Assembly: GCA_932294295.1 (NCBI GenBank)
Contig: OW028580.1
Coordinates: 9,329,374-9,393,373, forward strand
Reading direction: 5' to 3'
DNA: 64,000 bases
Source: Alitta virens
Lineage: Eukaryota > Annelida > Polychaeta > Phyllodocida > Nereididae
Below, in pieces: positions 1-41,365 of this stretch. The notes under the pieces are model-generated. The model made no database searches. It saw nothing but the letters and a program-made list of their open reading frames with translations, and was not told where the DNA came from. The position numbers and the translations under genes are program-made. Numbering within the stretch: the stretch's first letter is position 1; each line of letters begins with the position of its first letter.

Positions 1-191
1 ACCTTTCCAAAACAAAAAAATTCTAGTTCTCTAGTCGAGCTAAGAAATGCTGCAGCATTATTATGGAACATTTTTTGAATCAGCAGTGCAGCTTAATGAG
101 TATTCTGAATCTGGGATTCTCCTATAATTCAAGGTGCTGTCACATGTAATATTAGCATTCATCTCAGGACAAATTATGTGTTACATTTCAG

Positions 192-365
192 GTCAGTGTG
201 AGAGTTATAACACGGAAGAAGAATGTCGCAATGCCCATCCTGGGGTACGATGCGTTTGGACAAAAGAAGGCCAGCAGTGTTTATTGCCTGACCAAGCAAG
301 ACATAAGATCAGCTTGAAGACAATGACAGAGTTTGAGGATCCAACTTGTCCCAATAGCCCTCCTG
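192..365 (+). pseudogene. Copy of attractin exon 12 (first PSI module)
   Basis: The open stretch begins [18 protein letters not shown], behind a TTTCAG acceptor and in front of a GGTAAT donor. It differs from the parental exon at 22615-22788 by one visible residue (TEEE here, TEEK there). It keeps the PSI cysteines. It has no upstream kelch exons within the window. Confidence 0.85.
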
Positions 366-465
366 GTAATTGAATATTCAATTACAACAATTTTCTCATT
401 GTATACATACTTTCTTGATTTTTTTTAATATTGCATATTATTCACAAGGTTACATTTTTTTACAG

Positions 466-584
466 AAAGTGCCGCAGTCTGCCAGGACTTCTTGACGTAT
501 CCCAGTTGTGTCGGAAACAATTACACTTGTGTTTGGTGCCAAAATAAATGCATGCTGGCCAAGTCTTGTACTGAAAATTCTGTG
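466..584 (+). pseudogene. Copy of attractin exon 13 with a lost PSI cysteine
   Basis: Same length and splice sites as 22396-22514. The parental [10 protein letters not shown] reads FLTYPSCVGN here because TGT became TAT at 498-500. Loss of a disulphide cysteine in an otherwise near-identical exon fits relaxed constraint. Confidence 0.85.
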
Positions 585-698
585 GTGTGTTTGAATTTTA
601 CCTCTATATTTTAGAAAATGTTTGATGCCATCAGTACATTTTCATAGCTACATTTACTACATGGTATTTAATCTGTTTATATTGTATCTTTCTTTCAG

Positions 699-825
699 AA
701 GGCCCATTCGTATGATCAGTGCTACATCAAATTTAAGAAAGAGTCGCTAGAATGTCCCATCATCCACAATTGTCGAGCATGTCGAGCAACTCCAGAATGC
801 CACTTCATTGAAAATGCCAAGTGCG
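699..825 (+). pseudogene. Copy of attractin exon 14
   Basis: Colinear copy of 22155-22281, encoding [12 protein letters not shown] onward to the NAKC end, with acceptor TTTCAG and donor GGTAAG intact. The downstream partner exons 15-20 are absent from the copy. Confidence 0.85.
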
Positions 826-1278
826 GTAAGTGCTTTGGGTAATGAAAACTTTAAATGAAGGGTCACAATTGAAATACATTTAAGGGCATAGATTGTTCAC
901 TTCATTGGTTATCATAGATTTAATGTTCACAAAAATATTACTTAAGAAAGGAAGAAGTTGATTGTAATGAGCAGCTTATTTTTATAACCTTATGAATCTA
1001 TATGTGCAACTTAAAAGACAACCAGTAGTACATGGTAGCCAAAGAAATGATTGATAATTCAGATACATTACATCTTGTAAGAACACAATTGTTGTTTGCA
1101 CAGTAACTGATAAGGGCAAGAAAGTAGAACTAGAAATGGGGCCAATCTGTTGTGTGTAAATGTTAGAGTCATCAAACAAGTAGATTTAGTATTGTTTACA
1201 TATTGTTTTCATCATAATATTATGTCAGAATGATGTATGCTGCCATTAACAATGGTGTTTCTGGTTTATTAATTTCAG

Positions 1279-1375
1279 ATATTTTTCTCGCAATTCCCCC
1301 AAATAGATCTTGTTCATTTCTTCTGCTGTTTTCTGGAAGGTCAAGCAGTGATATGATATATTCTGTCGTGGTCAG
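1279..1375 (+). pseudogene. Copy of attractin exon 21, transmembrane helix disrupted
   Basis: This is 97 nt against 138 nt in the parent (18665-18802). The 41 missing bases match parental 18718-18758, which encode the first two thirds of the membrane helix, and 41 is not a multiple of three. Acceptor and donor (CAG|GTGTGT) are retained. Confidence 0.85.
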
Positions 1376-1532
1376 GTGTGTAACGTAGCTCAGTGGAACA
1401 GGCACTCTGGGTCCTATGTAACTTTGGATGACACAATTGTGGATGACAAGTTAACATTAAAAACCTAGTCTACGCTATACTGCACTAAACCCAAGAGTTT
1501 TGTGAATTTTATATTTGTGTACTCATAATCAG

Positions 1533-2400
1533 CTTAAGTTTGATACTCGGGCCTGCATGGAAGCGGGATTTGAACTGGACCACCCAATTAGATGGGGAAT
1601 GGTGTAAGGCTGCTTTGGGTGGCAGTGGTTGGTGTTGCGAGGCTGAAGGGGGAACTGGAGAGTATTCCAACACCGAAGGAAAACGTTTCTGGCAGAGGAG
1701 GCCCAGACCACCAAAGGCACCACCTAAGGAGACCATGGAGGCCATTGAAGTGTATGAGCAAAGTAGACTGAGAAGACTGCTGTGGCCCCAGACTGCCTAA
1801 TGAACCCGGAGGCTGAACCGATGGCTGGACAGACGGGGAAGCGGTGGTGGTGACTGTGCGTCCTGTCTCCATATGCTCAATATGCAGGGAGAGCGGGAGA
1901 GCAGTGGTAGAAGGCAAGGGGAGTTTGGCTGGAGGCCATGTCCGAGCCCCTGGATTGGCAGCAGGCTTGCTCTTCTTTATTCGGAGACCGTTCCACTGGA
2001 CGTGGCCCGGGGCGCTTGGGAGCGCGGTCCTAGGTTGATCTCTTCTCCAGCCAAGAGCGCTGGGGAGAGGGTTCAAGAGAAGAGTCGAGAGCACACCCCG
2101 CTGTGGCAGCTGCCGATTGGTGCTGGGCAGAGGTAGCCTTAGGGGAGGGAGTGTAACGTGGCATGGCAAATAAATTGTAAAAATAACAGTGATGTGGTCA
2201 CTGGAAGTGAACAGAGCGGTGAGAGGTCAGGCACAAGGTGCGGGCCGCTTAAATATGCCCAGAGAAAAACAGTTAAGTCTGATCACAGATTGCTGTGCCA
2301 AAAGGGTTCTTTGTTTTATTTGAAGGACCGTGAGTTTAAACATCATAACTTTTTTTTAAGTGATTTTATTTATTTGTATTTCAAACTTTAAAATATGAGT
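1533..2400. mobile_element. GC-rich block, possible LTR-retrotransposon remnant
   Basis: Immediately after the duplicated segment the base composition becomes GC- and purine-rich to about 2150. A purine tract (AGGGGAGGGAG, 2140-2150) is followed by TGTAACGTGG, which looks like a polypurine tract next to the start of a 3' LTR. The sequence near 2270 (GTTAAGTCTGATCAC) weakly resembles 1533-1550, which would fit short LTRs. Overlapping open frames on both strands (for example 1588-2169 minus) have no recognisable protein and probably reflect composition. No reverse transcriptase or gag is visible. The family call is tentative. Confidence 0.3.
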
Positions 2401-2741
2401 TTTTGTTTTCCTAAGGGATTGACCTGGAATTTTTTTTTTGTTTGTCGAAAGACATTTTAGAAACCTAGGCTGCTGCAGCATACCCTCGGCAATTTGAGAG
2501 AATTAAATTATTGATACTGTACCATTGCATAGACAATGATTAATAATTAGTGAAGTGCTTTTAAATATTATTTATTAAATAATAGGCGAAAGGCAAGTTA
2601 TCATATTATTTCCTCATAATTATATAAAATTATTAAGGTGGTTTTTATTTCTTTCATAAAATATGATGTCTTATATGCAAAGAGCATAACAGGTGGATTT
2701 TCAAAATACATACACTTAATCTTTACAAGTAAAAGTACTAT

Positions 2742-3375
2742 GATTTAGACATTTTAAAACCTATACTTTTTGTATTTAGGCATAATAGTAGTTGAGATGG
2801 AGAGGTGTGGAATAATAGGAATTTTCCTCATCATATATCCTAAATAAAAGTAATATGTCCATATGGTTATCAAATTTAAAAAATATACATTATATTCACT
2901 AAACATAGTGCCTGGGTTTAGGGAATGTGGCAAACGACAAAATTTTAAGCAATTTTTTCATATTGTCCATTATTATGAAAATAGCGTGTATTATGTCACT
3001 ATGATTTTGACAAATTATGGCCAAATCTCATCAGCTCATATATAGGTATAATATTAGTTGAGATGTGTATGTTTAGAAAATTATGAATTTTTCACGTTTT
3101 TTCGCCATTACCATATTTTTTGACATATTATGACAAAGTTGCAATCATGTAGGTGCAGTAGTGTCACTGTTCTGCTTCGGAAAAGAAAATTATAAATTTT
3201 TTTTACATTTTTTCCCAATTTTATGAAACATAGCTTAGACATGTCAATGAGACTATATATATATATATATCAAGGTGCATGCAACAGTGTTGGTGTTATG
3301 CTCCAGAACAAAGTATGCCGCCGGCCCATCAGCTCCGCCTGCCCGGCTGACCGACACCTTTTGACCAAAGTAACT
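2742..3375 (+). repeat. Dispersed repeat R1, copy 1
   Basis: It shares ordered blocks with 31430-31990: an AGACATTTTAAAA block, a TAGGGAATGTGGCAAAC-like block, a GAATTTTTCAC block, and ATGTAGGTGCA followed by GACA(T/C)GTCAATGAGACTAT. A related piece lies inverted at about 36680-37000. Blocks are partly repeated within a copy. No TIR, tail or protein was seen. The superfamily is unknown. Confidence 0.6.
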
Positions 3376-3489
3376 ACAATACCTTCAGCAAAAGCATTTT
3401 GATTCACAATTGTATGTGTTCCCGCCAAATTTTTTAAGTACAGAATGAGCCAAGGACGCTTCATCGGCTGAGGTGCCCAAATGAAAGTT

Positions 3490-3970
3490 TTAGTTTAGGC
3501 TACAGGCTGTGGTTTCTTGGGAGTTGCGTAAAACAGCATCATGCTTGGGAAAATTATATAATAGTATAGATGATGGTGAACAATTCTGCATAATTCCCGT
3601 AAATCCCACAAGTCTGGCAATTCCCAATAACTCCTTCTGAGTCCTGTAGTGTTCTGCATTTCCCTTACATCCTGAACAAGTCCCACAAAATCCTACGCAA
3701 TTCCCACAAGTCTCATATTTCCCTGTGGTGTACTCCCATAAGCCCCTTATGTCCTGAATAATTCTGTAAAGTCCTACATAATTGCTGTAAATCCCATCAG
3801 TCCCTACGATAGCCTGCAATTCCCAATAAGCCCTGTAATATTCTGCAATTCCTATACATCCTTAATAACTCCACTATCTCTATATGGGTCCCATGAGGTC
3901 CTTCAAGTCCTATCTAATTCCAGCATTTCCTATAACTCCTCCAAGTCCTGCAATTCCCAAATTGGAGTCC
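3490..3970. repeat. Degenerate tandem array rich in TCC and ATTCC
   Basis: Units of roughly 25-35 bp built on the pattern 'ctgcaattcccaataa(g)tcctgtaat' recur with many substitutions. An open frame on the minus strand (3490-3819) is a by-product of the array and reads as repeats such as GNCVGFCGTCSG. Confidence 0.55.
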
Positions 3971-4489
3971 CATATGGGAATTATGGGGTTAAATGGGGCC
4001 TCCCAATAAACTGTATGACCCTCATTTATACAGCCAAAGATGTTTGTAGGATCCACTTGATTCTTTTGCAATATCATTGAACTTGACAATTCTGGAAACT
4101 TAACAGCAAATGTCTAACCGCATGATGAGCATATCTTGTATGATTTATTTTTTAGGTCAACCACTTGTCAGACAAAAGCTTCAAGTCTGCTGATAATTCC
4201 ACCAGTCAACACATGACTGCTTCAAGCAAACTTTGGATGACTGTTTCATAGAATTGAGAATATTGAATCACTAGACCTACTTGCTAAGATTCAGGAACCA
4301 ATCTACCTTGGATAAATCATACCTAATACTGTTGCCTAATAAGGAGAAAAAATAAGACAGCCACAAGTGGGACTTTCTTTGTCACAGTTTTCATATTAAA
4401 ATTACATGTATACCATATGTACATTATGTTGAAGTAAATAAACATAATATGTTTCTATGACTCAGACTTATGTTGTAAAGTAAATCATT

Positions 4490-4641
4490 GCCTGAATGCA
4501 TCTTTGCATGCACATGTGCCTCTTGGATGCGCTTTGAGTGTACATGCATGCACTGTGATGCACATGCACCTTTAAATGCATGTCCATGCATACATGCACT
4601 TTTTTTCTGCATGTGCATCTTTAGATGCACATGCAGTCTGA
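4490..4641. repeat. ATGCACATGCA-type palindromic repeat, left part
   Basis: The motif TGCATGTGCAT and its complement recur many times. It includes a 30-nt near-perfect palindrome at 4607-4636 (14-bp arms, 2-nt loop, arm CTGCATGTGCATCT). The same motif family resumes at 5505-5560, so the repeat is split by the element at 4642-5502. Confidence 0.65.
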
Positions 4642-7508: not shown

Positions 7509-7537
7509 CATGGACGTAAAAGCCTTTTACGTCCATG
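7509..7537. repeat. Perfect 29-nt palindrome
   Basis: CATGGACGTAAAAG and its exact reverse complement flank one central base, giving 14-bp arms. The string GCACAGTT lies just outside on the left and CACAGTTT on the right. It sits 1.6 kb past the attractin-like stop codon, in the 3' untranslated or flanking region. Confidence 0.9.
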
Positions 7538-9171: not shown

Positions 9172-9708
9172 CTATATACAGTTCTCGGGTCCATTTGAAC
9201 CTCCTGTGGCCATGTGCTTTCGGTGTTTCATTTTATCACCTTTGCTATGTTCTAGGCTTTGTTTTCTTGAATTTCCTGCAAATGAAATACAAAAACCACT
9301 ATAATTACAATTCTTACATCAAAAGCACTCATTATTTAAATTAATCTATTCCTGGCTGAATACCATTACAATTTACTATAACTAATTATAAGAAGCTTTC
9401 AAAGAGCTTCTAACTCGTAATTTTGTAGTTATTTCATTAAATATTCATCTGAAGACAGAATTTTTGTTGTATAAAACAAAAAACAAAACATCTGTACAAT
9501 ATACTAAAACAGCAACAATACACAACTCCTAAAATATTTAGGCAATTTTCCTCTTACCTAAAGTGACTAGTGCACTGCCTATGCAAACTCCACTCTGACC
9601 AGAAGGAGTATAGTCCTCGTCTCCAGTCGGTAGTCGGACTATTAATGATAAAACTGCAGCTTTGTGGCCATAAATTGGCTCTAGAGCTATAGGACTTGGC
9701 TTTGCCAG
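9172..9708 (-). CDS. ATRN: ATRN exons 23-24: C-terminal tail and stop
   Basis: Exon 23 (9558-9708) encodes [24 protein letters not shown], then [17 protein letters not shown], matching the vertebrate PIALEP, VRLPRG and PPGQSGLAVASALVDI blocks. Exon 24 (9172-9275) encodes [20 protein letters not shown] to PENCI and ends at TAG (9172-9174). Vertebrate attractins end in a similar short Cys-containing tail. Confidence 0.92.
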
Positions 9709-12700
9709 CTGAAATGAAAATAATTCAGTTTTAATGACTATGACTAAGTTGAAAATATTTCTGTCTTGCTTTTCCACCGCATATATTCATTTCATAAAAT
9801 CAATCACAAAGAAACTAGAGCACATAGAAATGTGCAAATGGCGCCCAGTATGTGTGTGAGGAAACACTAGCAAAATGTAGTAGATGTCAGTATTGAGTAC
9901 TATGGAGAAGAAACAGATGTGGAAAAAAGCACATTATATATACATGTATGGAACGTCCAACTATTAACTGTACTTCCAAAACGATTGTCAATGGCCGCAG
10001 ATAAATATTTGTGCCTATTTATGAGTGTCGACGAATTCACTTTCTCGAGCCGAATTCACTATTTTTTCCGGCGCCGAATTTGCATTGCGCCAAATTAACC
10101 AGTCACCCCATTTGACAGCTGACCTTATCAAGGCGAACGTTCGCTAACCACGAGGATGACAGGTGAATTCAGCGCAAGTCAAATTCACCGCGCCAAATTC
10201 ACCTATTTCGACCTGTCAAAAATAGTATATTTGGCGCAGTGAATTTGGCGCGATTATAATTAAGTGAATTATGAAGTAGGCAGGAGCTGCACGTGTGTTC
10301 TATTTCGTCTATTCATTCCTACTAGGCATTGATACTAGGCAGTAACTTGATATGATCGAGTGTTCTGTGCTGGTTTTTCTTCAAAACAAACCCCAACCTT
10401 AGCTGTGTATGCTGAGACAGGCAGGTTTCCTCTTATGGTTAGACAGAAGATAAATATGATAAAGTACTGGGGAAGATTAATGTCACTGCCATCCTATGAC
10501 ATCCTAAATAAATGCCTCAAAATTCAAGAATCTCTCTACATTAAGGGTCAGACCAACTGGTACAATAAAACAATACACATCATTAATGAATGTAATATAA
10601 ATAGTTGGGAAACAAAGGAGCCAGGGACTCTGGTCTCTGAAATCAAACTTAAACTGTATGAAAGTGAACAATCAAGGATCCTTAGGGAGATTAATGACTC
10701 TGAGAAGCACCCAAAACTAAGAACATACAAATTATTTAAAACTACGTATTGCTTTGAACCTTATCTAAATCTCAACCTCCCCAAGAAAACCTATAATAAC
10801 ATAGAAAGATTTAGACTTAGCTCACATAACCTCAAAATTGAAACCGGAAGACATGAGACCCCTAAAATACCATTAGAAGAAAGAAAATGTAATAAATGTG
10901 ATAGTAATGAAGTAGAAGATGAATTACATAGTCTCTTAATTTGTAACAATTATGCAGAACCCAGAAATCAATTAATCCTAAAAGCAAATAAACTGATTCC
11001 AAATTTCCATAACTTAGATAAAATACATCAATTTAAAGCACTAATGTCAAATAAAGAACCTGAAATGATATATGCTCTTGGTAATTTCCTAAATAAAGTA
11101 ATGTAGACTTTAATTACAACTGGGCTCCTCCGATATGACACTCCCTGACATGACTGTCAACACAAATTAGAAGAGCCAAATGTCAGGGTCAGCGCAATGT
11201 TGCCTGGTACTTTTTTATTTTTATACATGTGAACATTCTTATCTTTTTGTGTTAATTTGAATCTTATTGTGGTATTATGATCAGTATTTGTGTATATTTT
11301 TGTAAAATTTTAATCTAATATTGATATTATAATCAGTATTTGTGATTTGATCTGTGATTTTATTTGCTATCTTTTATGTACTTATATATATATATATATT
11401 ATTTCGCCTTAATACTGAATGTTTAAGAGCAGGACTCTGTCCAGAAAACATCAAATTGTGGCAACTGGGACCTTAAATGTTAAGCTGTATATTATGTATA
11501 AAATAATGAGAACTTGTACATCAGATTTTTGTAGATGTAGTTTTAGATAGACGTAGTGAGTAGATATGTGACATATGTATCTTTTCTGATATGAAAAAGT
11601 GTCAATAAAAGCTATATATATATATATTATTCATAATTAATAAGTGCTAGTTTATTTGCTGTCGTCAATTACACGTCTATGCCATACATACCATTTTTAA
11701 TCTACTTGCATAATCTTGCCCAAGTGCAATCAAGTTGGACTTCCAAGACATTCAATGACAATCAATAAAGCTCTGTGATGAAAGAGATTACACACATATT
11801 GTAACACTGAGAATTGCCTGGAATCAACCACGACTACCGGAGCACATAACTTCGTGAAAAGTTGATCAAATTTCACAAAGTATACATTAAATAAAAGCCA
11901 GAACGTCATAGAATACCTTTCTGAACAAAAACGGTAACCACTTACTCTCGAAACTGCAAAATTCGCTGTTTTTTAGCCGTACCATTTGACAGCTGACCAT
12001 TAAACTAGAATGCACATGGGATATGCAGAGCTCTGCCCATTGCAGCAGGGAGAGTGTTAGTCGTAGTGGGGGCGAAATTGCTGAACATAATAGGTAGGCT
12101 AATATGTAGCTGTCAATGCCAGGAGTGAGCGAAGCCTTCAACCTGTAGGCCTACCTGCCCATTTTGTCAAATAAAATTAGTCTTGAGGTGGTAAAGAAGA
12201 AAGTCTTAAAAGAACAGGGACTCATTTAAGTTGTTATGATTTCTGAACTATACACTGACTGCCCTATAACGCTAGTACACATCGTACTGACCATGTAGAT
12301 TTTTGAATTTTCAAAATTTGACAATAAATAATGATTTTAGAGGCAAAATAAGTGAAGAGCTGCTCAGGAATTGTAATGCGTACCTTCAGTCGCCAGGGGC
12401 GCTGCGATCGCTTACACTTGCCCCCTGGTGTGAAAAAATGTTATCGTCAAACAGTGGCATGACTAGCGCGAACGTCATCGATTCAAGGTTATTCGTCAAA
12501 TATTCTGGGCGCCCCGTTAACATAGACACCCGTTCTATGTACCGTTAGAATTTTTACAGTCAGAAAAACAAGTTTTCTCCATGTTTGAAGCTGGGTGTGT
12601 ATTCGTTAAGAAATTATGGACATCACAACTGTTGAACCGACGACGTTGTTTTGACGTGATGACGTAGTCTCGTTCTGGACCATTGGTCAAAAAGCGATAT

Positions 12701-14840
12701 TAAGTTGATCTTCCATAGGATTACATGTATTTTAGAAATTTTGAGACACTTCCGGTTCAGCATGATCACTGTGCAGCCTCATTTTGAAACCTCTCTCTAC
12801 AGGAAGTGAGCTTCGCTCACGGCCTACGGCCGTGATGAGCTTCGCTCATATAACAGCTGTAAACAATAGATGACAGTGACTTATCTGGAGAGGCAGAGGC
12901 CGTGAAATGCTCAAAAACGGCAACTTGTGGCAAAACAGCAACCTTGCTGACTGTGGGCTTGCCCCGCTGCGAGGATTCCCTTAATGACGTCATACGGACG
13001 TCTCGTGCGATGGCGAGACTAGGCAGGAATTAAAGGAGCCACGGCGTTGCTAAGAATGCCTGTGTGTAGGACACTATTATCAGGCTGTAAAAGAAGATGT
13101 ACCTACAAAATACGGGATGTAGCGAAAGACAGAATAAGGAAAGAGGCCCCCCGTTGGTTTTTCACAATTGAACCAAAGGTAAGACACTGCAAGAATTCCC
13201 CGCCAGGGGCCTCTCGCCCAAACATGCACGAAGCTGTACAACGCACTTCGGTCATTTACGTCGGAGTTCGCAATCTTGTGACTGGAAACAGCCGAAAGGA
13301 GCAGCGTAGTCAACAAACAACAATTTAAAGAAATGTATGGAACATATACAACATAACATGAGTGCAAAACACTCCAAAGACAGTTCACTAAAGATGGACA
13401 ACGTGGCAAGGCGCTATGACATGTAGAAGTATGCTGTATACACGCTTGAACGTACACCCGCACGGCAAATGGCAAACCGGAAGCATTACGCGTAAACGCC
13501 TCCCCAATACAAATGAAAGTATTGGCGCTGCGCGCCAATAATTAGGCTTAGCCTAATTATTTAACTTATATTTATGCAGTTTACCACTAAACCTAGTTCA
13601 CACGAAAATGGAATTTAAGTATGTCTAAAACTTTCTGATTTATTTACCTTGACTTTTCTTCTTGAGGCACGATAATCCGGTGGTTCTTTTTTCAAAGCAA
13701 CCAGAGTGTTATTGTTCCCAATCTCCATGGAAACGATGGAGAAGGGACGACTTGCCATCCTCTCCATTTCAAAAATGATGCGCTGCAATAATAGATGAGA
13801 AAAATTGAGCAATAATTCAAATAAGTGCAAAAATTCATTAGAATCTAGGTCAATAAAGCAGTATTCCGAAACCAGAATACTGAAGAATGTAAACATTACA
13901 GTATGACTCATATGGAATTGTCCATGTTTCGCCGACATTTGGGGAGACACGGGATGTCACGGATTGTAGCGGGGCATTGCGCTTACCCCCCATGGCATGG
14001 CTAATTGCTTTGCGGGGCCTCTCTCGGACTTTTGCCGACCTGTGGGGAGTGTAGGGGCTTTACCCCGCTATTTCTTTTATCCCTTTTAACCCCATCAAAT
14101 CCTTGGTCCCTTTAAGAGCAGGTGTTACATATCATGGGGGTATATAGATATCAGCGTTTAATTGCGCAGAGGGGGTTGAAACTGATACCCTGAAACCCTT
14201 GTGTAGTAAGATATAGGACACATGTTCTACCAGTCTTGAGTGACAACAATAATTTTTCTCCTTCATTTGAAGAAAGTTACTCTATTTTCATTGGATAGCT
14301 CTCTCCTTCTAGATTAAGACCATGCAAATTTCATTGCAATGTGATCAGTTGATCCTGAGATATCTATTATCAATAAATTTATTTACATTTAACCACATCT
14401 ATACCAGTACCAGTTCATTATATCTTAGATAAACCACAGTTTAATCAAGATTATATGAAGTGATAAATGTGTCATTATAATTTAGAAATAAATATTTTAA
14501 ACTACAGATGTATCATGCTATGTTTGTGGCGTTGAATAAAGTTATGTTGTGGTTAACAATCACAATATAAATCTCCCCAATAAAACCACTATCAAGACCG
14601 ACGTGTCACAATAGCTCACAATTGTATTACGCAAGTCCACTGTTCCATCAAGACTACTGAACAGATAAATACATTGAAACGACTAATGAGATCCCCTCAC
14701 AATTAAGACCTCACAATTTCGGACCTGTCTGCATTCTGTTTTTTTATGAAGGCTACTTTGACTATTGCTAGATAGATAGATAGATAGATGGATAGATAGA
14801 TGGATAGATGGATAGATAGATAGATAGATAGGTAGTTAAG

Positions 14841-14884
<44 letters not shown>

Positions 14885-14900
14885 GAGATGGATGGATAGG

Positions 14901-14932
<32 letters not shown>

Positions 14933-15369
14933 GAGATAGAGAGATAGATAGAGAGATAGATGGATAGGTAGAGAGATAGAGAGATAGATAGTTATTTAGG
15001 TAGATAAATAGCTAGCTAGATAGATAGGTAGGTAGATAGATAGTTTGCAACATTATATACAAATATATATTAGTCTTACTGGAAATGATGGTGTCCTAAA
15101 TCATTTTTGGCTAAGCTGAAATTATTTTTAAAGGTTATTATTTATATTAAATTCAACTATATTTACCATATATTGTCACAGAGCCTTGACAAATGGTTGC
15201 TATGGCAACGGCAAAGACAGAGATAAACAGGAGCCCAGGGACAGGAGCACTGACCTACATATAGATATGTAGGTCAGTGGACAGAACTGACTGACTGACT
15301 AATTTTGTGACTGAGCAACCAATGATAGGAGACATGAGTTTGTAGCAATTGACACCTGTTCAATCAATT

Positions 15370-15405
<36 letters not shown>

Positions 15406-18400
15406 CCCAACTTTTAGGCATGAGACAAACTATTTTTGAACAAGCAGCCAACTTGCTGTGACCTATGACACATATTATTTCAGACAAAAAAAAAGTTTTT
15501 CTGACTCTCCACTTACTTGGGTTTCTTCATTTGAGATTCAGTGACACAATATGATTACTATATTCCCCATGGCATCCATCTAATGGTAAATCCATGAGTA
15601 CTTGTTATGTTTACAAGGAATTATGAGGTCAGTCCTGGCCAAACAACTGCTGAGTGCAAAATGACCCAGAAAGTTTGTCCTAATCAGGTCACCCCTTCTG
15701 TAACACCCACTCCCCATCACTGATACAGGGTGACTGGCAGTCTGTCAGTAATACCAGGGTAATACCTTAGTCAGTCAGTCATAATAATCTGTGCTGGCAT
15801 TATAAATACAGCAGTCAGTCAGTCAGTCAGTCAGTCATAATATTGGCTGCACCAAGCCCTTATTCAATAATCTGTGCTAGTATTATTAAGCCAGCAGTCA
15901 GTCAAATCAGTCAGTCAGTCAGTGTTATATTAAACAATATTTCAGGAATGTGAAACTTATTTTTGAGAATTATTTCGGATCTATGAAATGTGAAATTTAT
16001 GGAGAAACATTAAAAATTATGGCCTACTGTGAAATGAAAATACAGCAACATTAACATACAGCAAGTGATACAGATGGACATAATGTGTTTGCATGGTATG
16101 ATTGAGCACTGTTTATATTCAATATGTTTTTAGTTACATTGTCATTTTTCATATCACTGGATCTACCTAACATAATGCAATAAGATTTATATGCTCTTGA
16201 TCTAGAAAATTAAAGCAACCCAACAAAAAGTAAGTCATTGGTGTATAATAAGAAAATTAGAAAATAACTATTTTGACTCAAGAGTAAGTAACTAAGCATG
16301 TTCTTTGATCTGGCCTGGAGCAATCACTTAAATGAGGGCAACCCATGCAGGGCCATGGGGGGTGGACGGGAGGAGGGGGTTATTTGCTCGACCGGTCATT
16401 CCTCAGCGCACAGCTTAACAAATTGATAACATAAAATTTAAATAACCAAAAATACAACTCAATATAATTAATTTTAAGAACTGAATATTCCGAACTCACA
16501 GTTTTTCAAAGCAAATAGAGTCCTTTAGAGACACAGAGACCGCATAAGAAAACAATCACATTTTTGTCCAAGTTAGATCTTGGATCCAAAGGATAAAAAT
16601 ATTTTATTTGCATGCTCAGGCAATATACATTGTTTATACCTTTAATTTTGCATTGTTGCTATGACAGGTCTCAATAAATAAAAAAATAATAAGATTAAAA
16701 ATAATATAAAAACAGCTTCCACTGCTTGAGACATCCTCTAGAAATATGTTCACTCAACATAATGCCCAGTGTGCTTTGACCACAGTTAATAACCCAATTT
16801 CTTTCTTGTGACTACTCAATGTGGTATTCAGCAGACATTAGATAATCTATTTTAATGTAACTTACACAACAACATTTGAAGGACAGGTTAGAGAAATAAG
16901 TTTCACATTTGGTTGACTTATGACTTCATGTCTTTTTATCTTGAATGTATAGTTCAGTGACATTTTTGTGCTTTATAGAACTCCAATAATATTATAATGT
17001 AAAATAAGCCCTTGAGATATGTGAATTCATGCATTTTACCCCTGCCTTCCAAGTTATCTGAATGTGATAAAATGGAAATCTGACACAGATAAGAACACAT
17101 GTGGCTGATGAGGGCAAAGGACCTCTGACCACCACACACATCAGCCCACGAAGCTCATATCCGTAACAAGGGGCAAGGAGGCGCGACTAGCCGCTGCAAG
17201 CCAACACCAGCCGCAAATTAATTATAACCAATTAGTCAGGAATGTCTTTCAGCATCACGCCGACTTACGCCGCGTTTCGGGGTGTTTTGCCGTGATGTCG
17301 GCAAAACATGGACAATTCCATATGAGTCATACTGTAAGTGTTACATCAACAGAATTTTTAAACAAAAAGAGAGAAAAAAAGAAAGAAAATGTTTTCATGA
17401 CCCCATAACCTAAAAGCAGAATAAAATTACGCATTTTTATCATATTTGAGTGGTTCTGACAGCGTTTTTTGTTTTTGTTTTGTTTGAATTGATGGTAGCC
17501 TGCTGCTTAATTAGCCAGGACAACCAGCTGTTATAGGAAAATAAGATGGAGTCTCAGATTCACACCAAATGTGGAACCTTAATTCAACCCAGGACAGACA
17601 CGAAGTGCAATGCATTTCTGATAAATAGTCTCAAGGTTACATCCTTTTGAGTTTCAGGCCAAGAATTGAACACAGGGCCCCATGAAGAGCAGGGCTTGTA
17701 ACTGCACTACAAGGCCACCTCATACGTCAATGACATATTATTGTGCCAATAAGTTTGCAGATCATTTATTGGAAACAGGAAAATAGATATACATATACAT
17801 AAAAGTAAGCCATGCAGCATGCACCATGTTTACAACATGTTATTAATGTAAATGTGTGTGGGTTTTCTGTCTGCCATCTCGATTTACATGAGCTCTGCTG
17901 ACATCACAATTTACAACCTTGGCAGGCCTGTTCAAGCATGAATCTTTCTCAACTCCCCGGAGAGTATACCCTCAATCTGCAGCCGTTAAGGTGCACTTAG
18001 ATCAATGCACTCTACAATTGCTCATCACTTCCTATAGTCAAGTACCCATATACACAAGGGTGGAGTGAACCAGTGGTTCAGGGAGGATCTGATCAGTTCC
18101 TCCATGCCGTGGCTGGAATTGAACCCACGACCTTGCGCGTATGAGTCCAATGCCTTAACCACTAGGCCACGGCATCCATTTTAGCATAAGAGCTATAACC
18201 ACCTCCATGATAAGACATGGAACTGACAAAAATAAGTGTATTGGCAACACAATTATGATGTCCAAAAATAACATGCAATATATATCATTAGGAATTATTA
18301 CCAAACCATTGTAAAAGAAAATGTTGAATACTTAAAAATATCACTGGGTCATAGCCTGACATGGCTGTTACCAAACTCCTTTCTCCTCAAAAAAAAAAAA

Positions 18401-21400
18401 AAAAACTAAATTCAGCAAAATATGGTATATGATTTAGTTTTCATAGAGCATCCAAATTATCTGGGAATGATTGTTTTGGTCAGGCTGTGACCCAGATGCA
18501 TGAATTTCTGATTATGAGTGAACAAATATAAAATTCACAAAATTCTTGGGTTTAGTGCAGTATAGCGTAGACTAGGTTTTTAATGTTAACTTGTCATCCA
18601 CAGTTGTGTCATCCAAAGTTACATAGGACCCAGAGTGCCTGTTCCACTGAGCTACGTTACACACCTGACCACGACGGAATATATCATATCGCTGCTTGAC
18701 CTTCCAGAAAACGGCAGCGATTATTAGAAGCGACAGGAAACAACTGAAGAATGTCACGAAGAAATGAACAAGATCTATTTGGGGGAATTGCGAGAAAGAT
18801 ATCTGAAATTAATAAACCAGAAACACCATTGTTAATGGCAGCATACATCATTCTGACATAATATTATGATGAAAACAATATGTAAACAATACTAAATCTA
18901 CTTGTTTGATGACTCTAGCATTTACACACAACAGATTGGCCCCATTTCTAGTTCTACTTTCTTGCCCTTATCAGTTACTGTGCAAACAACAATTGTGTTC
19001 TTACAAGATGTAATGGATCTGAATTATCTATCATTTCTTTGGCTACCATGTACTACTGGTTGTCTTTTAAGTTGCACATATAGATTCATAAGGTTATAAA
19101 ATTAAGCTGCTCATTACAATCAACTTCTTCCTTTCTTAAGTAATATTTTTGTGGGGACAATTTGAGATTCTACAAAACAGACCTCCCTCACCTGTAGTAA
19201 GAATGGTGTGTGGAAATCATAGACATAAACGAGAAATGTTGTGTTGTCATCTTTCCCAAAATGGTAGTCTTTGTAAGAGAACTTCTCCTAAAATAAGGGA
19301 AAAAGCGATATTCAACCATGAATGCTACACATTTATAGACACAAATTCAATAAAAGACTGTAATACGATTTTTCTAAATTATGTTATGATCATAACACTC
19401 CTACCTTGAAGAGGTTGCACTCCCTCCCTTCTAACAGAGAACGCTCAGTGGGTGCAGACGTACTCTTGACCGTGATGTTGAGGTATGCTTTTGCCGAGCA
19501 GTTAATGCTGAAGTCCACATCTCTGTCAGGCTGTCAATATGAAAAAGATTTAAGTACAAGATTTAAAATTAATTCTTACTCTTTTACTGGACAATGTGGA
19601 CATGAATATCAAAATATCTTGCTTTTTACATCAAAACCATCTGAATTGGAAATGGCCACTGGATGAAAAGTAAATTTGGATACTGTAAGTGGCAGCTGAG
19701 AAAAATGAGCTAACGATTGTCTGCATGGCACCCATTTTGCGCTGATTTTATATTGCCATAATACCCATCAATCACAGGGAGTCACCGGTGTTTCTATGAT
19801 AGGCCATAACCTAAAAGTTAAGTAGCTTAAGAAAATATTCTTCCCTTTTTTAATTGCCCAATTATGTTACCTGCAGCAAAATATCAAAGAAAACATTCAA
19901 ATTGTTTAATACCGTAGGTGGCGTGTTCATGAACTTGATTTCGGTGTAATACTTGTCATCCTCCTTGGATAAGTTGAATGTGAATTGAAAGTCAATCTGC
20001 AGGGAATCTGAAGGATAAGAAGTTCAGTCATTAATTGGAGGAGTTTGATCACAAATTAATCTAATCTGTGATAATTTGATACAGAACATTGCACATCATC
20101 TATACTGGCCCCTGATGTTGCATTACATTATCAATACAGATTATAAACATCAATTGAAAATTCAGGTGCTTGATGGACACACAAAGAGGGCGTCAAATAG
20201 CCAAAAAGAGAAATTACATTGTTAGAAATTGTTTTTCCCCCAACGATATCAGTAGAAATAATTGTCAAATCCATTTGTAATTACACTCACAATAACACGT
20301 TCCACCATTCTTAGGATTGCCGACATAATGGTGCGGCTCATCACAAACATCGCATCTGTCTCCGGTGGTCCCTCGGGTTCGGCAGTAACATTTGCCGGTC
20401 ATGGGGTTGCACATGTCAGCCTGACCGTTGCACTGACAGGCTGTGCAATTCCCACCGTTAGTTGCTTGACCGTAGAAACCATCCTGACAGCTCTCGCACT
20501 GTGGCCCAGTGGTCAAGTCCTCACAGCTGACGCAAGATGAAGTGTTTTCGTAGCAAGTGCTGTGTCCATTGCACTGGCATACTATGAAGAAAAATCAGTT
20601 TTATTTAATCCTTTCTTCAAGCGTCTTGTCATCGAGTCAGCAAGTAAATTGTTCCCCTTTGTTACAAGAGATGTCATGTCTCGCTAAACAGTAAACATCG
20701 TCAATATAAAAGGAACCCAAATCTGAACCTGATTATTCATAATGCAGCAGAACACTAGTACAGATATGTTTGTCATCCAAAGCCAAAGGACAACTGAGCC
20801 AGTTCCTTGGAAAATGGCAATTTCTAAACTTCAATCAATGTGGTAAAACACAATATCCTTACAATCGATTGAGAAAACGTAAAAAATAAATTAATAAGAC
20901 ACACTGCACAGCTGTCACACAGCTAAGATATACTTACATGGGCATTCTGTGAAGTACCACTGGTTTGCGGCACATGACCCTAGGCTTGCAGTGGCACCCT
21001 TCTCATTGACTATGTATGGCCCAATTGCACCTCCTTCCATGCATTGCCCAAGACCTGTGTTGGTTCCATCATCACACCACCCACAGGCCGGATTCCTCTG
21101 GCATTGGTCGCACGTCTGGAGATCTTTGCATCTCGTTCCTATGGACAGTGCATCAAATATCAATAAAAAATATGGTTGTGTGGCATTGGTCAGTAGAGTG
21201 GGCTTTCTATAATCAAGTATCTGTATGTGCATGGAGTTGTACCTGAGACAAATTTCATGTTTCTTTTATGACAATAAATGATTTTCATATTTTATACAAG
21301 TAAAGAGAATGTGGCAATTACATACATACATTACTTTAAGTGCAAAAGGTCATCATAAGTGCTAAGGTCCATGAAGTATAAGCATATTGCCATATTGGTA

Positions 21401-24400
21401 CACTGCCCTTTAGCATATTGAGGTACAATGTCCTACGTGTATTGCAAGAGCTTTCTTAGTGGAAATTACATTTACATAAGATTTCATATTTTTTGCTGTG
21501 CTAAGCCAAAAATAAATGTCAACAGAGTAACAAATACTGTTCCATCTCTCACAAATTCCAACTGTTAAATCAAAATCCTTACTTTAATTTTATCAAAAAT
21601 AATTGCAGTTCCTAAGCCATGGTCATCCAATCAGTCTGATTGATTAATGTCTACACTTTATTATAGCTGAGGTCAAATTTAACCTAAATACATCACCATA
21701 CTTTACCTGGACATTTCTGTTTCTGAGTGGTCCACTCCATGCACTGTCCATAAGGAAATGATGCCACATAAGAGTTGGAGTCCACACACCTCTGTTGGTT
21801 GGGGCACCACATACAGGACTCTTGCGTGCAGTTCTCACAACTTGTGTGGATGTAGCAAGGAAGTTTGCATTTGCTGTGGTAATCTTGGGCAGCGAATGCA
21901 TCTGAAATCATCATCAAAATATTGATTATCAAAATAACAGGGATGCCAATGATTAGTCATATAAACTCTAAAATCTGTTAAAAGCTCTAAAACTGTTTAC
22001 AACAACATTTGATATGTTCACTGAAAGGTTAACATGTTTAAGTAAATATGTGAACATTAAATCTATGATAACCAATGAAGTGAACAATCTATGCCCTTAA
22101 ACGTATTTCACTTGTGACCCTTCATTTAAAGTTTTCATTACCCAAAGCACTTACCGCACTTGGCATTTTCAATGAAGTGGCATTCTGGAGTTGCTCGACA
22201 TGCTCGACAATTGTGGATGATGGGACATTCTAGCGACTCTTTCTTAAATTTGATGTAGCACTGATCATACGAATGGGCCTTCTGAAAGAAAGATACAATA
22301 TAAACAGATTAAATACCATGAAGTAAATGTAGCTATGAAAATGTACTGATGGCATCAAACATTTTCTAAAATATAGAGGTAAAATTCAAACACACCACAG
22401 AATTTTCAGTACAAGACTTGGCCAGCATGCATTTATTTTGGCACCAAACACAAGTGTAATTGTTTCCGACACAACTGGGACACGTCAAGAAGTCTTGGCA
22501 GACTGCGGCACTTTCTGTAAAAAAATGTAACCTTGTGACTAATGTGCAATATTTAAAAAAATCAAGAAAGTATGTATACAATGAGAAAATTGTTGTAATT
22601 GAATATTCAATTACCAGGAGGGCTATTGGGACAAGTTGGATCCTCAAACTCTGTCATTGTCTTCAAGCTGATCTTATGTCTTGCTTGGTCAGGCAATAAA
22701 CACTGCTGGCCTTCTTTTGTCCAAACGCATCGTACCCCAGGATGGGCATTGCGACATTTTTCTTCTGTGTTATAACTCTCACACTGACCTGAAATGTAAC
22801 ACATTTTTTGTCCTGAGATGACTGCTAATATTACATGTGACAGCACCTTGAATTACAGGAGAATCCCAGATTCAGAATACTCATTTAGCTGCACTGCTGA
22901 TTCAAAAAATGTTCCATAATAATGCTGCAGCATTTCTTAGCTCGACTAGAGAACTAGAATTTTTTTGTTTTGGAAAGGTATTTTCAATTTAGCAGTAAAA
23001 CGATGCATTCTGAGTCTTACACACAAACCATTGAAAGATGAATGAAATATTCCGCATTCCGAATCATAATATCACCTTTCATATTTGCTAATTATCATAC
23101 ATTTGCATCAAGAAAGGAAATTGATAGCTTCTGTCATTTCTTACCAGGTGTGTACTTGTACATGTCATTAAGCATCAGGCCGTTAAAACCACCAAAAACA
23201 TACATGAACCTGCAAGTATAGAACAATTATATTGACAAGCAACCCAATAATTCATTGTTACACATGGGGGGGGGGGGGGGGGGGATTGGGTACACAGATA
23301 TCTTATTTGGCATTTTATCTAAAATTCTACATCACTGCTACAGGAAAAAGATATGTTACCCTTCTTGAACTTCAGCGATGTGGCCAAACCGAGCAATGTC
23401 CTTCTGCAAGTGCGGAGAATCCAGTGTGTACCAAACACCACAATCTGAAATCACAGCGAAGCAGAACATGCAGACATTAACAGATTAACCAATCAATAGT
23501 ATTTCAAATATAATCAACATATTCCATCGAGGGAAAATCAAAGAGGACTGACAAACTTACCAATATCATAAGCAAGGAAATTAGAGGAGAAACATTTGGC
23601 CCCACGGCTGTGGGAAGTGTCATTGTGGGTGTTCCCACCAAACACAAGAACCAATCCCGAAATAATGACCATTGAGTGGAGGTACTTGGGTTGGCCGCTA
23701 CTTCGCAAAATTAGCCTGAAATGTCAAAAGTTATGATAATTGAACTACGAAATATATTCCTCCCTTGAACTATTCTCTGAGCTTTTTCCCATGCCTTCCG
23801 CATTAAACAAGTTGAGCAAATTTGTGAAGTGGAGGTCTCTACTAAAACAGCCTCACAACCACAGATAATACACATGATAATAGTGCAATTAAAGCATAAA
23901 TGATAATTGCATTTGATAGGAGTGTCAAAAAAAATTCCCGTTTACAAAAACAAGCACGAGTTTATCTCAGACTGTGTAGTACGGACCATTCCTTAGTGCG
24001 AGGATTGTAAGAATACAGATGATCAGTCAGATGGTAGGTTGCTGTGGGCCGAGAATGGTACCCAGCGTGTACATAGATGAGATCAGTCCTGGTGTCCATG
24101 ACACTAGCATGGCCGTAGCCACCTTGCACAATTGCTCCTTTCGTTGTGGGGATAGTCCAGGTGAAATTTGCTGAAAGGATCATACGGAACACTATCAATG
24201 TCAAGATACTCATAAATATAAAACAATTGTTTCCCTATAATGATCACGTCATGTTTGTGCACAATGATTGAAAAACAGTTTCAGTACGAAGCCATGGGTA
24301 GTGAATTGTAAATTAAGCTAAACCTTGTTAACTTATAATAACGAATTGCACACAGGCAGAGATTTTACAGATGTATACTCAACAGTCATCATTTGGACAT

Positions 24401-27400
24401 CAAAAAAGAAAAGAAGGCCATCCATGCCAAAAGCCTGTATTGCATGGACTGAACAGCTTCATTAAATAAAAGTTTGCTATGGTAATTCTGATAGTGAAAT
24501 GACTCACCAGACCTTCGATTCCATACAAACTCCAAATAAGTCTATAGCATCCAGCATCACTACAGCCAAATCAAATTAACTATTGCTATACTGAGACGTT
24601 AGAACTAAAAAGATTTTATTGGTGTACTAACCAAGATTGCATTCTTGCACAGTGTTCATATAGCCATAGACAGGACTGTGACCAAATATAACCAGCATGG
24701 TGTTGTTGTAGATATGCGCAGTATGGGCCACCACAGCAATGACCTCATTTTTTCGTTCATCCTCGTCACTTTCAGCCTCCGTAACTTTGATGAGTTTCCA
24801 TTCCAATGTTGTTGTATTGAAACTCCACAACTCTGACGTGATATTCTTTCCTTTCAATCCTCCATACATCAAAATAGCATCCTAACAAAATAAGACACTC
24901 ATTTCAATTTTACTCAACATATATTTCGTCACAAAAACCATGGTATTTGACATTTGAATCAGTATTTTAATATTGACATTTTTAAGTAGTGCTTTACTTT
25001 CTAGAAAAAAACCATACAAATTGACAGTATTATAGAATACAAAAACACAACAGTTCCAAAGAGCACAGACTACTGAGATCGCTTTACATTCAAAGCAAAA
25101 TTTTGACATATTTCAACTCAAATTACACCATTCATTCACAATAGGGACACCCACAAGCAAAAAAATCTCTATTTTCTGTAATTTAAGATGACAATCCCTT
25201 CAACAAACTTTTGTTATTACACAGGGAAAGGCAATAACACTATCGATGCATGTGGATAATGTTCTAAATTATACTTACATGCCACAGAACTAATGAATGA
25301 CCATATCGCTGGTCAGGCCATGGACTGTCTGCTCGATTCTTGTCAATAATTGTCCATCTTTGTGAGAAAAAGTCAAACCTGAAAAAAGGCAAAGTGATTT
25401 CTTTAAAAAGATCACATCATTAATATTCTTAAATCTGTCTTGGTTAAAAACCTCTTTTTAAGCAAATCCCATTTAATAGGCAAAGAATATGTTTGTATTT
25501 TACTATTCAAATTCACTAATAACCCGTTTATACCTGCATAAAAGACAGGTATGTGCAAACAATTTATAGAACATCCAGATTGCATCGCACAAAGTAAATG
25601 TATTATATCGTCTTTCAGTATTTTTGTGTCTGAATGTCATGCAGTCTCAATTTTACTGGTCTGAAACTTTGCAGTTGATGTGACAAGCTGTAAGCAGCAG
25701 ACATAATGAGACAAACAGCATTGAAGGCCACATCAGGTCTGTTAAATATTATATTTGCAAACATCATACCGAGCCAGTTCCTGGAAAGGATGACCAGGAA
25801 AGCTGTCACCAGACACAATGTACATGACGTCACCCTGAACGACCGATTTATGCGATGCTCTCGCAGAGGGAGCATCTACCAGATCCACTGGTTCCCACAC
25901 TCCTTTCTCAGGGGGTATGCTGCAGTCCATGCCTGTGATTGAACATAATAACCAAGACATATCACAGCTTACAATTACATAATGTTTGCTCCATTCCTTA
26001 CAAACTGCTACATCACTTTTGTGTCCTTTTAGATTATTACATTGCCTTTCATCCCATTTCTTACAAATTATATGCAACATGAAGGTAGATAATTTGATAC
26101 AGTAATCATATGTGTATGTGACCAAAAAGGAGAATAGGCTTTGCAGAAACATTTCTATCGTAAATACACAGTGTAGCAACTCTTGTCTAAATGTATAGCA
26201 GCTTTATTTTACCGACTTATTTTTAAACCTGAAACAAAGGGCTTTTCTGAGGTTAATATGCTACTTTGTAAATGCACTGGGTTAAGAGTCAGCCTCCACA
26301 TTATGGCCATACCAAAATATAAATAAAAGCAAATAGTCAGACGCTTACCTCTCCATCCATTGTGGCACTGACATTTGCGCTTGCTGCCTATTTCAGTGCA
26401 ATCCCCATGTCCCGAACAAGAATTGAGACACTCCTCAAACTCACAACCATCACCCGTTGTCCCGGAATCGCAACGACAAGTAAAGTCAGGCTGACAAGTC
26501 CCCCGAGTTGAGCAATCCAAAGGACATGCATCCATTCTGAAAAAACCATACAAAAACAAATTACTTCGGCAACACAAACTGGATCATCTTTAGCACATGC
26601 AGTAATTACATGACTCATTTAACAGAATGTAAAGGCTGTGTTGAGAAAGCAGTTTTTTAATTTCAACTGATTGATTAGGCTTCACCATCCTATGGTTAAG
26701 ACCTTCATTTTGACAGTATTCTCCCCCCCTCCCCCCCCCCCCCGTTTTATTTTCGAGTTCGATCGCGACACTTTTTCAGTATGTACCTTGTGGAAAGACA
26801 TTAAATTAACCCGGTATTAGTGACCTTGACCTATTTTTCAAGGTCACAGAGCTCCTCAAAGACGAAAATCACAATATTTCAAAGTGGATTTTTTTCCTGT
26901 GATTAATGAAGTTGCAGAAAAGTGGCTATAACATGTTTGTCAGTGACTAAAATACTACCACCATGCATCTTTAAAAAAATATTGTAATAAAGTGTGTCAT
27001 TACCTCCCCCCCCCCCCCCTCAATCAACTGTCACAAACATAATGAGCATGTAGAAATATGCGGCACGGAATCTGGTGTTGATCAATGAAAAAGTTAGGGA
27101 ATTAGGGCACTTCAAAAATGTCATAACTTCGGATTAAGTACATCAATTTTAACCAAATTAGGGTCATGTACAGTTCTAGGATAGAGGAATATAGTTATGC
27201 AATATGAGTGACCTTGGGCCAAAGGTCAAGGTCAAAGGTGACCTCAAAGTAGCAGATTTTGAAAATTCATATCTTGGTGAATTTTTGTATTAAAATTTTG
27301 AAACCAATATTATGCAATCTTGGTTTAGTTTGCTTTGAAATTATTATATCAAATTTGCCCTAAGGGCAACAAAAGGTCAAATGTCAAGGTCATATGTGAA

Positions 27401-30400
27401 AATGTCAGTCTACAAGTTGACTGCTTAATAATTATTTAGCACTCGCAGTCAACCTAAACTCACATGGACTATATTTACGTTATCACTACACACATTAAAA
27501 TGTATTGCCGGCCGCACAAAATAGTCCTATGTTCACTGCACTAGATTGCCTCACAAAAAGTATATAATATCCGAATTTTGACGGATTTGTATTCCTTGTA
27601 TGATACTGAGCAACTTTGAATCAAGGACCATAGGGCAATAGTGGCTGGGTTAGTTGTGTGAGAATTTGGTGCTCAAGTTGTTCCAAACGAGTTTCCAGGG
27701 ACCCTCACAATTCGAGGGTCCCGATCAGAGACAGTGAAAAAGTAGTAATTTTTCTAGTTAGGCTTCACATATTACCATACTATGGTCCATAGGTGAAGAA
27801 TATTGTTTTTGGTATTTATTACATTGACCAAGTTTAAGTGACACTGACCTATTTTTCAAGGTCACAGGTCAATTTTTGTTCAAAATTGCAAGAATTTAAT
27901 ATTTAATAAATCTGAAACCATTATAGTAACATGAAAATGGCCTTGAATCTTGTTTTCAGTCTGCCATTGACACAGCCAAAACCAGAGCACGTAAGAAGCC
28001 AATGAGGGTGTCAAAAGTTGCCTTTTACTTGGGGCCAGTGCAGATAGAACTTTGAAGTGGATATCTTCAAAGCTTTTTTAAATATTGAAAAATAGGTAAG
28101 CATGTCTGTTTCACCATGATATATTTGTTTTAGCTTATAACATGCTATAGTAAACTACCTCAAACATGTACCCAAACAATTTGTCAAATTTGACCTTAAA
28201 GGTAATTTTCAAGGTCCTTTTGACTGTTAAATGGGAAACAAGCTTTTTTCAAAAAATCTAAAAAATATCTTAGAATTTAGCTTTTGAACTGAAAGGTTTT
28301 GCATTGAAGACATTGACATGTACATTATCAATATGTAACTGATTTTGAGAACATTATTTGTAGATTTGAAAAAAAAATAAATACGGGCAACTGATTTCTG
28401 AAAAATGAAATAGTGAAAATGGCCATTTTCAATGAGAAATATTCACTTTAGACAAATGCAAACCATTGTTGACCTCCCACAATGCACATGTGAGCTTTCA
28501 GAATCTGTTGTCAATTTTAACCTTTGACCTATACGTCTGACTACGTCAAGGTCAAATTCAAGGTCAACCGATTTACCAATAGTGAAATTGTGTTATTTAT
28601 TAATTTCAAGCATAAAAAATAATTCGATTTGAAACAGGCACGAGTAATTTATAATTATAATCAGGGTACACTAGAACTATGGAAACCTAACCCTTACTTT
28701 AACCTTAAAGCTAACCTTAACTCTAGCCCTAACTTTAACCTTAACCCGAACTTTAACCTTAACCTTTGCGCTAACTCTTTAACACATTTACTACATACAT
28801 CAAGTTGGTGAAACCTATTAACAGTTACAGAGTTCTAGTTAATTTTTATTACAAAATTACAGTTTTGGTGAAGCCCATGTATCTGTGACACAGAAATAGG
28901 AGATATATTTTCCTTAATATTTACACAAGTATTACCATTATTATGCACTGTTACACTTTCTATTGACGTCTTAAGTCGGTGAATATAACTCTTTATATTT
29001 GGGTTTCATGAGATGCTTTTAGAAATATCAAAACCAGACACCTGAGACAAAGAATGATTACATGCTTAACATAGCGGAACAACATGAGCAATGCCCAGTA
29101 CTATCGATCAATGACTGACTGACAACTGGATTGACAAGTGCTTAAGTATTCCACATCAGCAGATCAGAAAAAGCTAAAATGTGAATTGAAATATTGCAGA
29201 TTTGAAAATGTCAAGATATTTCTCATTTTTGTCTTTTCCTCTTTTTTTATGAGAATTTATGGCGAGTCAAAATTTCAAGGATGGGAAAATTCCGACATTT
29301 TCTAAATTTTGCCGGGCCGGTGACATTTTCTATAATTTCTGCCATTATCTGGAATATCTGTGTAACCTTGTGTCTACTTTATTTTCAATATGATCCAAGC
29401 CTTAACAACTGCTGCTGTACATGTTGAGTGAATAAGATAGTGAATTTATGTACACGCAGTATGGTGCAATCTGAGACAGACAACAGTAAATTACATATAT
29501 TGATCACACAACTGATCCTACCATTACACCAGAGGTGTTTATGAACCTCACCTGATTGTACATGGTCACTTTTACTTCATAATTCCACAAGTGGCATGAT
29601 CAGAGAATGTGAGGATAATATTTTCCAGAAAATGTCAGATTATGCCACCTTGGAAGATTTTGCCAAGCTGGAGAATTCCCAGTGGTATATTCCAGAAATG
29701 ACATAACAAATTAATTCCGAGATAATTGAAAATATCACCTGCCATTTTGTAGCATCATACCACCCTCAAGAACACTGCGTTCAAATAACTGCTAGTCAAA
29801 TACAGTGCAACACCATGATATCTCATTAGTACTTTTATTCTAAATCATAATACACCGGTTTACCACATTGTGGCACATTCCCATTAGAGCGCTGCATTGC
29901 ACAAACCTATTTGCTGTTAAAATAGTTCTACATAATATGTGGCGCGCCACGGGAAAAGGGGGCTTACGGGTGGTGACGTCATAACTGCGAAACTGGCGGG
30001 AAAATGCAAGCAAGCCATGCTGCGTAATAAATGATTGTCACATCAAAGACGGATAATCATACTGCTCTCTCCCTCTAAAATTGAATGGACTCACCCATGT
30101 TAGTCCCATTTCTGGGAAATGGGCTAGTTCATTTCAGTTTTAGGGATTAAAGCCAATATGCCTAAAAATAGTTTTACTACAAAATCGTTGAAAAACATTT
30201 GTCAAACATAATTCATAAAGAAATACAAAACAGGTATAACCTCTTTAGTGACAGTGTTATCATACCAGTCAGCGGCGGATCCAGAATTATGAGGAGGGGG
30301 GGCACAGTCATTAAATTACCTGTACCCTTGCTCTGACTGATGGCTATTTGGCAATGTAAAATCAGCGTGAAGGGGGGGGGGGGGGGTAGGGGCGCGTTGT

Positions 30401-41328: not shown

Positions 41329-41365
<37 letters not shown>

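Follow-up and report, generated by a model that had tools for sequence, protein, structure and literature searches.

We are fairly confident that the first 1,532 bases of the DNA analysed here are the right-hand part of a broken, inverted 2.8-kb copy of the central portion of the attractin gene, which retains introns, carries four deletions and a stop codon, probably came to lie between two old mobile repeats through the repair of a DNA break and is likely without function. From its sequence we read this copy as an unprocessed, partial and inverted pseudogene fragment. The window, that is, the whole stretch of 64,000 nucleotides of Alitta virens DNA under analysis (C8:9329374-9393373), lies inside a 41.4-Mb contig of a genome of 671 Mb in 23 contigs. 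A further 55 kb were read to the left of the window, where coordinates are counted with position 0 standing for the base that immediately precedes window base 1.

The attractin gene and its inverted copy

The parental attractin gene was modelled by hand on the minus strand at 9172..48205, with 24 coding exons and 1,250 codons that are open throughout; exons 22, 23 and 24 lie at 13782-13648, 9708-9558 and 9275-9172 on the same strand. Pfam recognised the attractin/LZTR1 propeller, the attractin GBD-like, EGF, CUB and PSI domains and kelch repeats in this model. Protein relatives numbered 593, and among the best 120 of these the closest was from the annelid Owenia (50% identical), with brachiopod, mollusc and nemertean relatives next at 45-49% identity. 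By Pfam, the model is without a C-type lectin domain. Since PF00059 was listed in only three of the best 120 of the 593 relatives, the two named being a fish and a frog, this lack looks, from the sequences compared, normal for invertebrates.

Several further features were observed in and around the gene. A stop-to-stop open frame of 251 aa at 10351-11103 (+), situated in an attractin intron, belongs to no Pfam family and, judged by eye, looks like a retroelement remnant. Related dispersed repeats, approximately 82-86% alike, are found upstream of the gene at 54185-55003 and 58556-59379, and reverse-oriented matches to them occur at 13135-13466 and 11825-12002 in an attractin intron. Downstream of the attractin stop codon, 7495-7552 (-) contains a near-perfect 20-bp inverted repeat (7503-7522 and 7524-7543) with a predicted folding energy of -19.5 kcal/mol (z = -3.9 against shuffles), which may represent either a hairpin of the small-RNA type or a palindromic element. 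ARAGORN called no tRNA gene; a weak Rfam tRNA match at 18104-18174 (-), scoring 29.8 against a 29-bit cut-off, probably marks a short repeat derived from a tRNA and situated just outside the source segment of the copy, at its right edge.

The first-pass annotation had proposed an inverted and internally deleted attractin copy at window 1-1532, and BLAST and alignment bore this out, pairing 1-1532 (+) with 22979-18508 (-). When window 1-5000 was used as a query against the window itself, three minus-strand blocks were obtained with E-values of 0 to 1.3e-97, pairing 1-945 with 22979-22038 (98.0%), 928-1323 with 19153-18758 (98.7%) and 1323-1532 with 18717-18508 (96.7%); chance as their origin is excluded. 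Exons 12, 13, 14 and 21 are indeed present in the copy with intronic sequence, under a numbering that is the same in our 24-exon model, and the splice AG and GT are still present at both ends of all four. On the plus strand, the copy of exon 12 (192..365) carries K597E, that of exon 13 (466..584) carries C656Y and that of exon 14 (699..825) shows no difference from the parent, while the copy of exon 21 (1279..1375) has a 41-bp deletion after 1323 and a TGA at 1349-1351 in the parental frame.

Extension into the genome, together with BLAST, established that the pseudogene fragment at 1..1532 (+) is the right-hand 1,532 bp of a longer copy. The right limit proposed earlier stands, whereas the start at window base 1 does not, as homology runs left to -1298 (C8:9328075). 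The whole copy occupies C8:9328075-9330905 (2,831 bp) and corresponds in reverse orientation to 6,295 bp of the gene (24802-18508), the source segment at 18508..24802 (-) reaching from the middle of exon 7 to intron 21. It contains parts of exons 7 and 8, full-length exons 9-14 and exon 21 less 41 bp, and exons 1-6, 15-20 and 22-24 are absent from it. The large internal deletion proved to be one of 2,899 bp, with its junction at 928..931 (+), exons 15-20 gone and CACA at both ends of the deletion in the source; others of 459, 77 and 41 bp have to be added to it, making four deletions in all. The copy is inverted and lies 17 kb from its source, as had been claimed, but exon 21 is not the last exon of the gene: the copy ends inside intron 21, approximately 7.6 kb beyond the attractin stop codon, and exons 22-24 are located between the copy and the source segment.

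Differences between copy and source are equally frequent in exonic (21/1,040) and non-coding (42/1,770) bases. As introns and exons were copied alike, the duplication took place at the DNA level and not by retroposition, in agreement with the earlier suggestion. A processed (retroposed) pseudogene was considered as a candidate and rejected, introns being present throughout.

A genome search with 1-1532 gave, among the best candidates, at least three matches, which were the copy itself and two parental blocks. A six-frame protein search gave at least 38 matches (37 of 85 candidates scored), comprising 24 parental matches, 8 to the copy and 6 distant ones, the latter with 24-47% identity and situated on C14 (four), C10 and C7. 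No further attractin copy was found in these genome searches, which covered the best candidates and whose counts are lower bounds. Three of the distant matches, with 29%, 47% and 38% identity and open frames of 423, 403 and 93 aa, are spread over approximately 51 kb at G000:C14:30420094-30471263 and possibly represent, on this similarity, a second, attractin-related gene. Among the literature matches listed, none was to the point by title on attractin pseudogenes.

Divergence and decay of the copy

Across the whole copy, 63 of the 2,810 bases aligned to the source show a difference. When these were counted from left to right in fourteen bins of 200 bases (12, 11, 5, 4, 2, 1, 2, 6, 5, 1, 2, 3, 2, 7), the profile was uneven, with a permutation P of 0.0007 overall and of 0.009 inside the single 2,040-bp block. 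At the left edge 23 of 400 bases differ (5.8%), and the zone from -538 to 93, which is mostly introns, has 4 differences in approximately 630 bases; the longest identical run, of 245 bases, is not exceptional (P = 0.18). Gene conversion between copy and parent is hinted at only by this profile and is possible but unproven, and uneven mutation could also give such a profile. It appears rather unlikely that the inverted arms are still recombining, with conversion keeping the centre of the 2-kb block near-identical. Were they to do so, conversion could pass broken sequence, such as the cysteine-to-tyrosine change, to the only close attractin gene found, and crossing over could flip the last exons of the gene. 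The proposal of the first-pass annotation that the arms promote inversion is possible in principle, and nothing shows that this has occurred.

The coding part of the copy was analysed through its 18 changed codons, 13 of which are non-synonymous (one of them a stop) and 5 synonymous. For the whole copy this proportion is compatible with neutrality (P(<=13) = 0.40), and the probability of 13 or more non-synonymous changes under constraint was 0.00004 at an omega of 0.1, 0.006 at 0.2 and 0.049 at 0.3. The window part taken alone (5/8) gave P = 0.028 at an omega of 0.1 and 0.18 at 0.2, and excludes constraint only at 0.1 or below. Four of the residues changed in the copy were compared across 120 homologues, none of which has the residue of the copy: that of the parent is found in 120/120 at C656, where the copy has Y, in 119/120 at H393, in 116/120 at R1118 and in 88/120 at S1077. 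At T374 and K597, in contrast, the residue of the copy is commoner among the homologues than that of the parent (30 against 5 and 14 against 2, respectively); these changes can therefore not be assigned to the copy. A shift towards A+T was weak, both in the window part (15 against 5; P = 0.04) and in the whole copy (31 against 17; P = 0.06). Frameshifting changes comprise the 77- and 41-bp deletions and a 1-base insertion near the end of exon 9.

Taken together, the copy is to be read as a decaying paralogue and not as a misplaced allele, with a coding part that appears free of selective constraint, because its exons differ like its introns, 13 of its 18 changed codons are non-synonymous, including a stop, and a conserved cysteine has been lost. 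It could otherwise be envisaged as an assembly artefact, in which the attractin allele of the other haplotype was misjoined in reverse, and the divergence of approximately 2% would fit this, lying as it does within the possible heterozygosity of a marine invertebrate. However, an allele would have to account for the unconstrained pattern of change and the loss of conserved residues, for the four deletions and for junctions into two repeat families of which the parental locus shows no more than short matches, and the copy is interior to a 41.4-Mb contig. We consider a misjoined allele very unlikely, the doubt over assembly being largely removed by the contig interior, the flanking repeats and the type of changes seen.

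A truncated, soluble attractin encoded by the copy was also tried as a candidate and rejected, as exons 1-6 are missing and exons 8 and 9 carry frameshifts. Exon 14 of the copy spliced to exon 21 of the copy would give an open frame for a short stretch.

Flanking repeats and junctions

To the right, the copy adjoins a dispersed repeat, family A, which was delimited by genome matches and flank comparison at 1533..4001 (+), the end near 4001 being approximate. Its part at 1533-2700 has at least 76 matches, itself included (40 of 108 candidates scored), and 14 copies have flanks that are alike upstream of the point where attractin starts at this locus; since these flanks resemble each other there, the cut in repeat A falls at 1532/1533. 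An LTR-retrotransposon-like nature is suggested by TGTAAC, which follows a purine tract at 2141-2151. No protein domain was found by Pfam in the four open frames adjoining the copy, and a protein search with the 88-aa frame adjoining the copy found nothing; open frames, among them one of 155 aa, were present in the 6 kb that lie upstream in a single copy of repeat A. At 2269-2273 the repeat A relatives L012, L015, L016, L025, L027 and L035 are longer than this locus by 779-830 bp and L022 by 566 bp. A local deletion at this point is likely but not proved, because the more distant L017 is also without the stretch. One further repeat A copy, L013 (G000:C7:12716400 and around), holds a stretch matching 1529-1664 three times, approximately 630-765 bp apart, and is a local tandem arrangement.

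The left flank belongs to a different repeat, B, with at least 82 matches, itself included (40 of 601 candidates scored). Repeat B continues past the attractin edge at the seven places that could be read across the edge, and in an eighth stretch (L060) the edge motif was not found. The continuation of repeat B, taken from three copies, had no match within the 119 kb read, and three 6-kb stretches from upstream in repeat A copies gave 8 short matches, none of them adjoining the copy. Each edge of the copy thus cuts a different dispersed repeat, and neither the window nor the 55 kb read on its left side yielded the missing part of either. As both repeats continue elsewhere and their missing parts are not nearby, each flank is the torn end of an element.

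The position of both edges inside repeats could be taken to mean that the fragment was captured and carried by a mobile element, either repeat A or repeat B. The two edges belong, however, to different families, no other place in the genome matched the attractin part among the best candidates, and the introns are unspliced, which argues against capture through RNA; we find little to recommend capture by an element and judge it highly improbable.

At the four deletions, the overlaps of the ends amount to 2 bases (459 bp), 1 base (77 bp), 4 bases (2,899 bp; CACA) and 1 base (41 bp). The 4-base overlap has a chance probability of 0.023 for one deletion, and the overlaps of 2, 1 and 1 bases are at chance level. 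The left outer junction shows 0 bases of microhomology and the right outer junction 1 to 5 bases, depending on which repeat A relative is chosen as the ancestor. A larger copy may once have existed, with the present edges created by deletions at a later time.

Origin and significance of the copy

On the simplest account, a break in repeat-rich DNA would have been mended with attractin DNA copied from close by in the opposite orientation; alternatively, a larger inverted copy might have been trimmed later at both ends. Later deletions and point changes would then have eroded the copy as an unprocessed pseudogene fragment. Microhomology-mediated break-induced replication (MMBIR) predicts discontinuous inverted duplicates with 2-5 bp of microhomology, according to the portion of PMC2621351 drawn on here. 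The copy resembles such a product in that DNA from nearby has been duplicated discontinuously and in inverted orientation and abuts unrelated sequence, and agrees with that microhomology only partly, with 0 bases on the left and 1-5 on the right, at edges that may themselves be later deletions.

Two other accounts of the inverted arrangement were weighed against repair of a break. The first-pass annotation had suggested antisense or hairpin transcripts against attractin, in which the copy would be a regulatory inverted repeat whose RNA silences or edits the gene. The 2,040-bp inverted block (-1109 to 931), with approximately 98% identity, could pair if co-transcribed with the gene, but to become self-complementary the parental transcript would have to run on from the stop codon into the copy across ten AATAAA and four ATTAAA motifs, and the copy decays as if unconstrained. 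The suggestion thus gained no support, and we attach hardly any probability to it. A chromosomal inversion with staggered breaks might likewise leave an inverted duplication behind, and for Drosophila mojavensis the excerpt of PMC3355041 consulted describes two inverted duplicates, the one intact and the other shortened by deletions (7.1 kb and 2.7 kb). This account can be dismissed almost entirely, as each duplicate in that model keeps one ancestral neighbour, whereas at this locus the parent runs without a break into exons 1-7 at one end and exons 22-24 at the other and so retains both neighbours, and the copy has retained neither.

Duplication with subsequent decay places the copy among known systems. 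In the sections of PMC2728529 relied on, newborn duplicates in C. elegans are frequently inverted and adjacent, their median span is 1.4 kb, and roughly one half of young pairs are partial or chimeric; partial duplicates are also discussed in PMC3449122, as far as its excerpt goes. Like the young partial duplicates described there, the copy is inverted, on the same chromosome near its parent, partial, intron-bearing and short; unlike them, it has lost the reading frame and both gene ends, is separated from its source by 17 kb and has repeats on both sides. It resembles an unprocessed (duplicated) pseudogene in keeping introns, in its frameshifts and stop, in showing no sign of constraint and in having an intact parent nearby, and differs from a typical one in being inverted and a middle fragment of the gene only. 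The finding is thus an ordinary one, an eroded member of a described class.

The most likely reading of the inverted exons is genuine duplicated DNA in decay, as opposed to a retrocopy, a second attractin gene or an error of assembly. For annotation, C8:9328075-9330905 should be marked as an attractin pseudogene fragment, and reads, probes and primers from exons 7-14 and 21 may match both copy and parent. If gene conversion between the two were confirmed, the locus would offer a modest example from nature of sequence exchange between a pseudogene and the one close parent gene that it has.
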